DNA from: an uncultured Gammaproteobacteria bacterium
Lineage (GTDB): Bacteria > Pseudomonadota > Gammaproteobacteria > Arenicellales > UBA868
NCBI GenBank assembly: GCA_913051905.1
Contig: CAJXBY010000037.1
Span: 1-18,753, forward strand
Length of the DNA stretch: 18,753 bases
Reading direction: 5' to 3'
The stretch's first letter is position 1. The number at the start of each line of letters is the position of its first letter. A program made the position numbers and the translations under genes. The notes under the pieces are model-generated. The model was not told the DNA's origin and did not search any database. It saw only the letters and a list, made by a program, of their open reading frames with translations. This document shows positions 13,977 through 18,237 of the stretch, piece after piece.

Positions 13977-14951
13977 ATGGATCTATCAGCTGAAGTGTGC
14001 CAAAAGATGTATTCCGATATGTGGCGGATACGGCTTTTCGAAGAAGAAGCCGATCGCCAGACCCACCTGGGCAACGTCGTCGGTACGCTGCACATGTACT
14101 GCGGCGAGGAGGCGGTGGCGGTCGGGGTCTGTTCAAATTTGACTGATGAAGACTATGTTCTTGGGACGCATCGCAGCCATGGACATTGCCTTGCCAAGGG
14201 CGCCCAGTCAGACCGCATGATGGCCGAGTTATTCGGCAAGGCGACTGGAACGTGCGCCGGCAAAGGGGGTTCTATGCACATCGCGGACTTCTCCCGTAAT
14301 ATGCTGGGCGCCAATGGCATTGTCGGTGCCGGGCTGGGCCCGACCACCGGGACAGCGCTGGCCACAAAACTGCGCGGTACCGATCAGGTGTCTGTCTGTT
14401 TCTTCGGAGATGGCGCGGCTGCCCGGGGGACTTTCCATGAAGCTATCGCTATGGGGTCGCTCTGGGACCTGCCGGTGGTTTACGTCTGCGAGAACAATCA
14501 GTACCAGCAGTGGGTTCCTCGCAAAAATGTTGCCGTCGTGGATTCGGTGGCTGATATGGCGGGGTCGTATTCCATACCTGGCGTATCGGTCGATGGCCAG
14601 AACCTGGTCGAGGTCTGTGAAGCCTCGGCCGAGGCGATCAGTCGCGCCCGTAGCGGCGCCGGCCCGACCCTGCTCGAGGCCCGCACCTACCGGTTTCACG
14701 GCCACAGCCTGGGCGATGAACAGCAGTACCGATCGACCGAAGAGGTGCAGGAGTGGACCAACGACCGCGATCCAATCAACTTGGCTGCAGACTTCATGCG
14801 TAAACGCGACTGGCTGAGTGACGACGAGGACCAGGCGATTCAGGCTGACGCTGCGGCGGAGATCGCTGCGGCGGTGAAGTTCGCTGAAGAAAGCCCCTGG
14901 CCGACGGCGGACGATGTCGCTACCGATGTGGTGGCAAGGGAGGTGGCGTGA
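13977..14951 (+). CDS. Thiamine diphosphate-dependent dehydrogenase E1 component, alpha subunit (acetoin/pyruvate type)
   Basis: A 324-residue E1alpha subunit of a heterotetrameric 2-oxoacid or acetoin dehydrogenase, which binds thiamine diphosphate and decarboxylates or cleaves the substrate before transfer to lipoyl-E2. The ThDP motif runs from GDG (144-146) to NN (173-174). HRSHGH (65-70), the GKGGSMH segment (96-101) and the loop RFHGHSLGDEQQYR (239-252) match the family. The length is that of AcoA/BCKDH-like short E1alpha proteins. Its TGA overlaps the ATG of the beta subunit, as expected for equimolar subunits. Sequence alone does not separate acetoin from pyruvate or branched-chain substrates. 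An E1-E2 operon beside catabolic SDRs favours a catabolic 2-oxo acid or acetoin. Confidence 0.92.
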   Translation: MDLSAEVCQKMYSDMWRIRLFEEEADRQTHLGNVVGTLHMYCGEEAVAVGVCSNLTDEDYVLGTHRSHGHCLAKGAQSDRMMAELFGKATGTCAGKGGSMHIADFSRNMLGANGIVGAGLGPTTGTALATKLRGTDQVSVCFFGDGAAARGTFHEAIAMGSLWDLPVVYVCENNQYQQWVPRKNVAVVDSVADMAGSYSIPGVSVDGQNLVEVCEASAEAISRARSGAGPTLLEARTYRFHGHSLGDEQQYRSTEEVQEWTNDRDPINLAADFMRKRDWLSDDEDQAIQADAAAEIAAAVKFAEESPWPTADDVATDVVAREVA

Positions 14952-15934: not shown

Positions 15935-17092
15935 ATGGCGACGCCGTTTCGACTTGCCGCACTCGGGCATACCATGGAGAAGGGCCGTATCGTTGAGTGG
16001 CATATCGACGAGGGTCAATCGGTCGACGAGGGTGACCTGCTGGTTTCTGTAGAGACCGACAAGACCGTGGTCGAGGTGAATTCTCCACTCTCCGGCGTGT
16101 TACTGAAACAGGTGGCTTCGGTTGATGGGGAATATGACGTCGGCGATGTGCTGGCCTGGGTCGGGGAAGAAGGAGAGAGCGTGCCCGAGGTGCCGGACCC
16201 GAAAGTTGCAGACGGTGCTGCGGCACCGGCAGGGCCGCGAGTGACACCGGTCGCCCAGAGACTGGCCGATCGGCACGGCATTGATGCCGAAGCCCTCGCG
16301 GGTTCCGGTCCCGATGGACGGGTGACCAAGGAAGACGTGCAGCGGGCGATCGATTCTGGCACGGCAACCTCTGTGGCCGATGCCGAGGATTCTGCGGATT
16401 CCGACGCAGAGATCGTTCCCCTAACCGGAATCCGACGCACCACGGCCGAGCGGCTGAGTGCCAATTGGGCACAGGCACCGCATGTATCGGAAGGTGTCGA
16501 AGTGGATTTCACCGATTTTTCTGCCACCCAATCCGGGCAGGAAGCCACCTGGCGCGATGCCCACGACTTAGTGCCAGGGGTGAACGATCTGGTCCTGGCT
16601 GCGGTGGCTAAAGCACTTCAGGACTATCCCGATCTAAATGCGGGTTATGTGGACGGGGCCATGCACCGCTACCGCGCCATCAACCTCGGCGTCGCCATTG
16701 ATACCGAAGCCGGCCTGGTGGTGCCGGTCATCAAGGATGCAGACCGGCTTGATCTGATTCAGATTGCGCGGGCTGTACGCGAGTATGCGGTTAAGGCCCG
16801 CGAGGGCAAACTGATGCCGGACGATCTGGGCGGCGCGACTTTCAGTATCAGTAACCTGGGGGGTCTGGGCGTCGACTGGTTCACCCCGGTACTGAACCCA
16901 CCACAGTGTGCGATTCTGGGCGTCGGCCGGGTTCACCGTGAACCCCGCTGTGTGGGAGAGGCAATCGTGGCCCGTGATGTGGCAACGCTGGTCCTGACCT
17001 TCGATCACCGGCTCGTTGACGGTGCGCCATGTGCCCGGTTTCTCGGCCGGTTACGGGAACTACTGGAAGCACCTGAATCCCTGCTGCCGTAA
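15935..17092 (+). CDS. Dihydrolipoamide acyltransferase (E2), 2-oxoacid dehydrogenase complex
   Basis: A 385-residue E2 core protein with one N-terminal lipoyl domain (1-78, lipoylated Lys43 in VETDKTVVEV), an acidic/Ala-Pro linker, the E1/E3-binding domain (about 103-139, VTPVAQRLADRHGI to DGRVTKEDV) and the catalytic acyltransferase domain (about 160-385) with DHRLVDG (His358, Asp362). It transfers the acyl group from lipoyl to CoA and forms the complex core. The canonical catalytic domain differs from the alpha/beta-hydrolase-type AcoC of some acetoin systems, so an acyl-CoA product is likely. CAGGAG lies 7 nt or so before ATG 15935. No dihydrolipoamide dehydrogenase (E3) follows; a housekeeping E3 must serve. 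Confidence 0.92.
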   Translation: MATPFRLAALGHTMEKGRIVEWHIDEGQSVDEGDLLVSVETDKTVVEVNSPLSGVLLKQVASVDGEYDVGDVLAWVGEEGESVPEVPDPKVADGAAAPAGPRVTPVAQRLADRHGIDAEALAGSGPDGRVTKEDVQRAIDSGTATSVADAEDSADSDAEIVPLTGIRRTTAERLSANWAQAPHVSEGVEVDFTDFSATQSGQEATWRDAHDLVPGVNDLVLAAVAKALQDYPDLNAGYVDGAMHRYRAINLGVAIDTEAGLVVPVIKDADRLDLIQIARAVREYAVKAREGKLMPDDLGGATFSISNLGGLGVDWFTPVLNPPQCAILGVGRVHREPRCVGEAIVARDVATLVLTFDHRLVDGAPCARFLGRLRELLEAPESLLP

Positions 17093-17102
17093 GTCTTTAT
17101 CG

Positions 17103-17138
17103 CTGTGGCAGGACTATCTGCCGCCTGCCATGGTTTTA
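17103..17138 (+). terminator. Intrinsic terminator of the E1-E2 operon
   Basis: TGGCAGG (17106-17112) and CCTGCCA (17124-17130) pair perfectly around an 11-nt loop. Counting G-U pairs the RNA stem extends to 10 bp (17103-17112 with 17124-17133), followed at once by TTTTA. It lies 11 bp after the E2 stop and fits rho-independent termination of the plus-strand operon. Confidence 0.7.
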
Positions 17139-17172
17139 TCGAAGATGGCAGTCCCAGAGGCTGTATTTACCG

Positions 17173-17301
17173 TTAATTCCACTCACTCTCCGCGCCTAGA
17201 GCAATCAACGCTTCGCCGCCGATCTCTTCACCGATTTTTTCCTGTCGTGCTTCATTATCGGATACGTGATTGATGAACTGCTCAAGATTCTCTTTACTCA
17301 T
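17173..17301 (-). CDS. Nif11-like leader peptide (RiPP precursor-type), 42 aa, apparently without core
   Basis: A 42-residue peptide beginning MSKENLEQFINHV and containing EKIGEEI and EALIALGAE. This matches my memory of the Nif11/nitrile-hydratase-type leader family, whose members begin MS-x-E-x-L-x-x-F and continue to an ALxALAxExG-like segment. These leaders normally guide modification of a C-terminal core after a double-Gly site. Here the frame stops (TAA, 17175-17173) just where the leader should go on into the Phe/Thr-Val part, so there is no core. ATG 17301 is set by a full AAGGAGG (17314-17308), 6 nt away. Its transcript direction matches the pilin-like and VOC genes upstream. No maturase or exporter is in the window. 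A remnant in another frame lies directly downstream. Confidence 0.72.
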   Translation of the reverse strand: MSKENLEQFINHVSDNEARQEKIGEEIGGEALIALGAESEWN

Positions 17302-17410
17302 TCTGAGCCTCCTTCTTCAATTGAGTATCCAATATTAAGTTTGTCATAAAACCTACTTAACAGATTGGGGAATACCAAGCATTCTTCTGTCGGTCATAGT
17401 AGAGAGAACA

Positions 17411-17641
17411 CTAAATCCGCCAACAGAAACAACACCCGCAAATGGAGTCTCCTGCGAATCCGGGTTGCCCGTCACTTTGCACCAATTCGATATGGCCACT
17501 TGAGGTCTTCAGCCCCGTTTTCTCTGCTGCCTCCGCTCTTCGGTTATAGGTCAGGTACTGTGGGACCGCGACACCTGCCAGAATGGCGATGATCACCGCC
17601 ACGATGATCAGGTCTAGCAGCGTCAAGGCTTTCTGTTGCAT
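17411..17641 (-). CDS. Truncated type IV pilin-like protein (prepilin N-terminal domain), 76 aa
   Basis: A 76-residue peptide with the N-terminal helix of type IV pilins/pseudopilins: a short basic leader MQQKA, then LTLLDLIIVAVIIAILAGVAVPQYLTYNRRAEAAE, of which only the first half is given by name here (LTLLDLIIVAV, 6-16, and VPQYLTY, 26-32). The residue before the presumed cleavage site is Ala rather than Gly, and position +5 of the mature form is Asp rather than the conserved Glu. The C-terminal beta-sheet domain of ordinary pilins (total 120-160 aa) is missing. The tail ends in a cysteine cluster (68, 70, 71, 73). ATG 17641 has AAGGAG 7 nt upstream (17654-17649). It lies 71 bp behind the VOC gene on the same strand. 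I read it as a truncated or frameshifted pilin, with a small functional pseudopilin-like peptide as the alternative. Confidence 0.6.
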   Translation of the reverse strand: MQQKALTLLDLIIVAVIIAILAGVAVPQYLTYNRRAEAAEKTGLKTSSGHIELVQSDGQPGFAGDSICGCCFCWRI

Positions 17642-17712
17642 GAGGCCTCTCCTTGTTCCAAAGTCATTGTCGTTCCAAACGTCGGTTAGGTTGGTGCAAT
17701 ACACCTGGAGTG

Positions 17713-18237
17713 TCAGGGCCACTCGTCTCGGATCGGTTCGCTGCCGTCCCAGTCCACCGCCGCAGCCCGTACCGTATCGAAAATACGCCGCCGCTCCGGT
17801 GTTAGATGCGCCATCTCGATGACTGTTCCGGGGTGTCCTTCGTTGAAGAAGTAGACGAACCGCCCTCGGGGGCTGTCAGCTTCCTGCCCGACCTCGTATC
17901 CCGCGTCCAGGGCCTCGCGGTAGACGCTGTCGAAATCCTCGGGCCAGCTCGACCAGTGCTGCAGTCCTTCGTTTCCTGCGTTGAGGAAATCCTGGTACAT
18001 GGTGGGTGAGTCATCACGCTGCTGGATCAGTTCTACCTGGACGTAGCCCGAATTCGCCAGCCCGATCGAGAGGTGTGGATCGCCCGACTGGCCCCGGTAG
18101 TGAAAATCCTGGAGGGGAAGTTTGTCGATGTAATACCAAGGGCCAATACCGCAGACCTCGATCCAGTGCTGCATCGCAGCCTCCACATCCCGCACAACGT
18201 ATCCCATCTGCCTGATGGGTCCAAAGAGCCTGCTCAT
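17713..18237 (-). CDS. VOC family protein (glyoxalase/methylmalonyl-CoA epimerase-like)
   Basis: A 174-residue vicinal oxygen chelate protein with two beta-alpha-beta-beta-beta modules. The first begins RQMGYVVRDVEAAMQHW (9-25). Likely metal ligands are Gln10, Glu69 (VQVELIQQ), His94 (GLQHWSSW) and Glu141 (GTVIEMAH), a set like that of methylmalonyl-CoA epimerase. The family includes epimerases, lyases, dioxygenases and glutathione transferases, and this subgroup is usually annotated only as VOC protein. ATG 18237 has AGGAG about 12 nt upstream. It may be cotranscribed with the pilin-like and Nif11-like genes downstream. A TATGAT hexamer near 18276-18281 on the minus strand could serve as -10, but no good -35 is seen. 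Confidence 0.88.
   Translation of the reverse strand: MSRLFGPIRQMGYVVRDVEAAMQHWIEVCGIGPWYYIDKLPLQDFHYRGQSGDPHLSIGLANSGYVQVELIQQRDDSPTMYQDFLNAGNEGLQHWSSWPEDFDSVYREALDAGYEVGQEADSPRGRFVYFFNEGHPGTVIEMAHLTPERRRIFDTVRAAAVDWDGSEPIRDEWP

Follow-up and report, generated by a model that had tools for sequence, protein, structure and literature searches.

The closest described counterparts of the locus analysed here are the N11P, or Nif11-like leader, RiPP precursors (PF07862, TIGR03798), reported by Haft, Basu and Mitchell in 2010 (PMC2887384); Table 3 of that paper gives the motif type ELSDEELEAVAGG. In marine Synechococcus, prochlorosins and other Nif11 precursors likewise combine a Nif11 leader and a GG motif with a non-conserved core, as described in PMC10783134. 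A further described component is the NHLM bacteriocin export system (TIGR03794, TIGR03796 and TIGR03797). Many prochlorosin-type Nif11 precursor genes are located away from their maturase. In the literature searched, we found nothing linking Nif11 with Arenicellales.

We analysed a stretch of DNA of 18,753 nucleotides (the window) from an uncultured gammaproteobacterium, in which a short minus-strand open reading frame (ORF) encodes a Nif11 leader that ends before any cleavage motif or core (Table 1). New here is the finding that this ORF sits in a 620-nt stretch that is missing from eight related genomes. We propose that it is probably an acquired, frameshifted relic of an N11P precursor and no longer gives rise to a product.

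Table 1 Features of the Nif11 locus and its flanks (positions are those of the window).
Feature	Position	Strand	Description or basis
Nif11 leader ORF, 42 residues	17173..17301	-	MSKENLEQFINHV...ALIALGAESEWN, stop TAA; translation, Pfam, NCBIfam, homologues
Codons S-E-W-N-stop	17173..17187	-	Best alignment: relatives' CGCEFT codons minus one base
5' region	17302..17361	-	AAGGAGG ribosome site 6 nt before ATG; upstream block; TAATAT
DNA after stop	17093..17172	-	Neither leader tail nor core recognisable; ...MAGGR-stop in shifted frame
620-nt stretch between E2 and glyoxalase genes	17093..17712	.	12-49 nt in 8/8 relatives
Pilin-like ORF, 76 aa, second gene of the stretch	17411..17641	-	End ICGCCFCWRI; GGAGAGG-type ribosome site
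E2 gene, dihydrolipoamide acyltransferase-like (name by eye)	15935..17092	+	Synteny anchor
Glyoxalase-superfamily gene (Glyoxalase_4, 66 bits)	17713..18237	-	Synteny anchor

Domain tests and close homologues

Translation of the minus strand from 17301 to 17173 gives MSKENLEQFINHVSDNEARQEKIGEEIGGEALIALGAESEWN, followed by TAA, and the hexamer CTCAGA separates the AAGGAGG ribosome site from the ATG. An earlier reading made from the sequence only had described this frame and its Shine-Dalgarno, and its coordinates, strand and length were all correct. It had also called the frame a Nif11-like leader and suggested comparing it with two profile models, which gave different answers. With the Nif11 model of Pfam (PF07862), the ORF scored 26.9 bits against a gathering cut-off of 23.8 (E 5.8e-6), with residues 1-38 on profile positions 1-38 of 48, the same N-terminal domain as in N11P precursors. 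With the NCBIfam model of N11P RiPP precursors (TIGR03798), it scored 16.6 bits, under the cut-off of 32.3, and is thus no complete precursor by the curated test of that model; the score of an intact relative, L007, was 42.8 bits. Unlike N11P precursors, the ORF contains no in-frame double-glycine cleavage motif and no C-terminal core, as had been recognized from the letters alone. Its last residues are ...LGAESEWN, so that the stop lies four residues past LGAE, 23 residues short of the second Gly expected from family spacing, and the Nif11 domain lacks the last ten profile positions.

A protein-collection search with the ORF, which admits proteins only up to about 73 residues, returned six homologues. 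Three of them are also 42 residues long, are 98, 95 and 90% identical to the ORF and end in GAESEWN; these clusters (P0002, P0003 and P0004) hold 12, 2 and 1 member sequences. The other three homologues, of 48-69 residues, likewise have no GG motif. The frame recurs in these clusters, and its ribosome site, which is like that of the relatives, is kept; the sequence-only reading had left the conservation of both to be checked. On contigs of species genomes, relatives sharing 48-65% identity are encoded at nine loci, none of them in the 42-aa form. Together with its ribosome site, the ORF matches the intact precursor gene L007 of another genome at 75% DNA identity across 126 bp (E 5e-19), and a 69-bp stretch (17302-17344 plus the first 26 coding bases) is 80% identical to the region of the L009 precursor gene. 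Upstream, the TAATAT is possibly a -10 element, which would place a promoter there; a sigma-70 promoter scan that included the upstream region of the ORF found no site.

The parent leader family

Querying the proteins a second time, with 15 aligned leaders and precursors, gave 1,354 homologues at E<=0.001 among 7,991 scored candidates, and we read the features of the family from 120 listed members of the 1,354. All 120 have the leader and a GG, and in every one the span from LGAE to the end of the GG is 31 residues. A strict LSDxELxxVAGG-type pattern fits 112 of these 120, and the other 8 deviate by a residue or two (for example, LSEEELDGVAGG). The sequences after the GG vary widely among the listed members, with some short C-termini recurring. 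Compared with the Synechococcus precursors, the relatives of the window ORF have a leader sequence of their own, and the window copy has no core. Their ELSDEELDxVAGG-type motif is like the published N11P motif type, and the parent leader family is of the N11P type of Haft and colleagues (PMC2887384).

Loci L001-L009 and clusters P0008-P0127 represent a very large gammaproteobacterial N11P family with a near-identical leader and widely differing C-termini. Source names of some family records are those of Nif11-like precursors of Arenicellales or Gammaproteobacteria. Judged from sample names, the family is presumably marine, and a Tara source is given for one cluster. No match came from 274 genomes sampled at class level and searched at a strict cut-off.

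Several family genes stand singly amid ordinary genes, those at L003, L007, L008, L009 and L072 among them (roles of the neighbours judged by eye on their translations), and others stand in tandem, as at L001. The catabolic neighbours of the window ORF, to which the sequence-only reading had drawn attention, are thus not unusual for the family. An in-frame GG is missing from 5 of the 15 distinct genome-borne family loci that we read, with the identical L003 and L004 taken as one and other Nif11 subfamilies excluded: the second copy at L001 (TAG before the GG), L005 (TGA at codon 8), L006, L038 (truncated at its 5' end by the contig) and L041. Two of the five lack it through in-frame stops. That loss of the GG is this common in the family was counted in favour of a relic.

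Several of these loci have features of their own. In the tandem second precursor copy at L001:3056-3280(+), the in-frame TAG lies between the leader and NAELSDEELDGVAGG, and the frame is open beyond it. L038:1426-1626(-) and L041:1441-1788(+), from two genomes, encode Nif11-leader proteins without a GG that have a common Cys-rich end, CKDPT(H/R)CATDWMWCRQVVG; given this end, the two may be a separate subtype and not a product of decay. On the minus strand of L020, two more ATGAGC starts with strong ribosome sites lie beside the Nif11 gene of genome G009, where an array is only a guess since a single L020 frame matched the family profile.

The end of the frame and a putative deletion

BLAST alignments of the ORF end lack a single base at the same place against both L038 (62 bp, E 3e-6) and L009 (41 bp, E 0.11 for that piece), aligning AGT GAG TG- GAA TTA ACG with codons for C-G-C-E-F-T. 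We also anchored the DNA after LGAE to 11 family tails and judged the fit by shuffles and by sliding positions that included the true one. For the first 24 nt, 2 of 500 shuffles and 1 of 199 positions matched the real score; for 30 nt, 22 of 500 and 6 of 197 did as well; and for 81 nt, 3 of 60 and 2 of 27. A 1-nt deletion just after LGAE fits these data best and is likely, with moderate support.

Unanchored searches for the missing tail were not significant. The best real score of a tail profile in the shifted frames was -0.2 bits, equalled or beaten by 86 of 2,000 shuffles, and local alignment of the downstream 90 nt with eight family tails was equalled by 424 of 1,000 shuffles for the best score and by 308 of 1,000 for the sum. 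Taken against these null results, the gap and the anchored alignments make a one-base deletion likely but unproven, with the core gone.

A gap of exactly one base is also what would be expected if a full precursor were made by programmed frameshifting from the 42-aa frame, an option of the sequence-only reading, and the shifted frame is open for about 20 residues. It reaches only a weak MAGG-R, however, with a stop one residue past the GG and hence no core; the tail-profile score falls within the reach of shuffled sequences, and the sequence past the stop does not fold with unusual stability (z -0.65). We therefore regard programmed frameshifting as very unlikely.

Constraint on the leader

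Residues 1-7 and 22-27 and the ALIALGAE segment of the ORF are almost unchanged. Elsewhere, all four members of the 42-aa clade have replaced Leu19 by Arg (Leu in 120 of 120 listed members), Asp28 by Gly (Asp in 97%) and Glu18 by Ala (Glu in 92%). Over the first 38 codons, second-codon-position differences number 7-9 in the 8 pairs that include the window versus 1-6 in the other 28 pairs. The pN/pS ratio of the window and L007, its nearest DNA relative, is 0.35, the highest of 36 pairs; the seven other pairs with the window, at 0.17-0.29, fall inside the 0.07-0.30 range of the 28 pairs without it. Saturation affects the silent sites of most pairs, and interruptions are present in two of the genes compared. 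On the second-position differences and the replaced leader residues, constraint on the leader looks somewhat relaxed.

These data bear on a second option of the sequence-only reading, a free-standing leader-like peptide with its own role. In the form considered here, a 42-residue Nif11 peptide under selection would bind where a maturase or exporter recognizes leaders, inhibiting or activating it or serving as a leader in trans. Consistent with this, the same length and end recur in the window and three other clusters, indicating that the truncated form outlived some divergence, which argues against a relic, as do the preserved start, ribosome site and upstream block and the unclear separation of the window by pN/pS. 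Seven of the eight window ratios are no outliers, which, like the nearly unchanged leader segments, counts in favour of such a peptide. Against it, the close homologues could represent strains of a single species, Leu19 and Asp28 have been lost, the second-position changes exceed those of any pair without the window, no maturase was recognized by eye among the window's ORFs and the near relatives described below lack both Nif11 and C39 matches. On balance, we consider a free-standing peptide unlikely.

The 620-nt stretch and its absence from relatives

Among 109 genomes of the order of G007, a genome that carries the leader family, 15 had a match to the window's E1-beta protein above cut-off, and eight of these, at 82-92% identity, served as near relatives. 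The E2 and glyoxalase genes are spaced by 12, 13, 13, 24, 48, 49, 49 and 49 nt in these relatives and by 620 nt in the window, so the 620-nt stretch, which carries both the Nif11 ORF and a pilin-like ORF, is probably an insert. Nif11 (PF07862) and C39 peptidase matches were absent from all eight near relatives, genomes whose completeness is not stated. The stretch was probably gained by insertion and not lost in all eight. That the stretch is found in the window and missing from its relatives helps to explain the orphan state of the Nif11 ORF. GC content falls to 41-44% in windows from 17200 to 17499. There are no repeats of at least 12 bases in 17060-17760, no tRNAs in the window and no Rfam matches on the window or on 17000-17800. 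Plasmid records contained no match for the Nif11 region or the pilin-like protein, phage records none for the Nif11 peptide, and viral contigs none for either peptide.

A short frame in a stretch that is missing from eight compared relatives might suggest a chance ORF or an assembly artefact. Against this stand the curated Nif11 match, the three other near-identical clusters, the ribosome site like that of relatives and the existence elsewhere of the pilin-like neighbour (P0128, 13 members, 99% identical), which together render chance or artefact highly improbable.

Export and maturation genes

Across the 109 genomes of the order of G007, Nif11 occurs in 14, C39 in 37 and the window's leader family in 7. 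G007 encodes an NHLM operon at L064, with two TIGR03794 proteins, a TIGR03796 protein with a C39 peptidase and a TIGR03797 protein, all four above cut-off, on a different contig from its Nif11 gene. Just behind this operon (L064:5386-13989(+)), at 14084-14203(-), is a Nif11-like fragment that scores weakly (18.3 bits) and has apparently decayed. Beside another C39-bearing operon, L065:3035-3331(+) is a 98-aa frame with ILGDDQLQAIIGGG and no NCBIfam match, and is a possible further precursor. We rejected the idea that a C39 exporter tracks the family: in 20 chosen genomes, it was found in 7 of 11 carriers versus 0 of 9 others, but the order-wide association was weak (8 of 14 versus 29 of 95; one-sided Fisher p 0.051).

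Among the window's ORFs, we recognized by eye neither an NHLM/C39 exporter nor a LanM, YcaO or radical SAM maturase. A LanM dehydratase model matched 0 of 20 genomes, and its controls were equally empty, so this result is no evidence of absence. An exporter and maturases could be present in the window organism's own genome, which would count against a relic, although the exporter is presumably absent there.

A probable relic

Family membership of the leader, the likely 1-nt deletion, the changes at invariant positions and the lack of Nif11 and C39 matches in all eight relatives together argue for a relic, and the suggestion of the sequence-only reading that the ORF is a remnant of a RiPP precursor is accordingly the best supported of its options. 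The ancestor would have been a precursor of about 80-130 aa with a Nif11 leader, an LSDEELDxVAGG-type cleavage motif, a variable core and its own ribosome site. In intact members of the family, the leader is presumably recognized, the core modified by an enzyme, the peptide cleaved after the GG and the product exported by NHLM; modification, cleavage and export of the ancestor may similarly have relied on an NHLM/C39 system encoded elsewhere in the genome. The precursor gene would have entered this genome on a short DNA stretch. A one-base deletion just after LGAE may then have brought in a stop four codons on, after which the tail and core would have degenerated and function been lost. The present-day output, if any, would be a leader fragment of 42 residues that lacks a cleavage site and yields no product.

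Such a relic would illustrate how, within a large RiPP family, precursor genes may be moved about and lost: one microgene at a time, placed between genes that have no relation to it. The leader-only stubs left behind score under the cut-off of the precursor model and may pass for novel families of small proteins. Both the parent family, with more than 1,000 homologues at E<=0.001, one leader and variable C-termini, and the peptide ending in ICGCCFCWRI merit study of their own.

The pilin-like neighbour

The 76-aa pilin-like microgene is the more unusual item of the stretch. Its start resembles a type IV pilin: the Pfam N_methyl model scored 15.7 bits, under the cut-off of 21.2, and the best alignment member gave E 3.1e-10. 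Neither the string CGCCFCWRI nor GCCFCW was found in the literature searched, and the 76 loci searched held no match to the ORF. Among the matches listed for the order's genomes, alignment to the pilin-like profile reaches at most position 65 of 75, so that only the pilin-like part was matched. A terminator scan gave one terminator-like site, inside this ORF, with 0.7 expected by chance.

If the leader-only Nif11 peptide acted in trans on the 76-aa peptide, with the conserved Cys-rich end ICGCCFCWRI as the modified core, the two would form a cassette in which RiPP leader and core are split onto two genes; we consider such a cassette scarcely probable. Separately, we rejected the idea that the Nif11 and pilin-like genes travel together, as a pilin-like frame lies near only 1 of 15 family loci and that one is without the ICGCCFCWRI end.

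The pilin-like ORF has 30 homologues, 23 of them of 75-76 aa, and ICGCCFCWRI is common to 20 of the 21 that were aligned, the exception being P0157; on this length and shared end we rejected a truncated pilin relic. All ten residues are invariant in a 17-row alignment from which P0157 was left out. The GFTLIE-type prepilin motif has been lost in 20 of 22 aligned rows, the window included.
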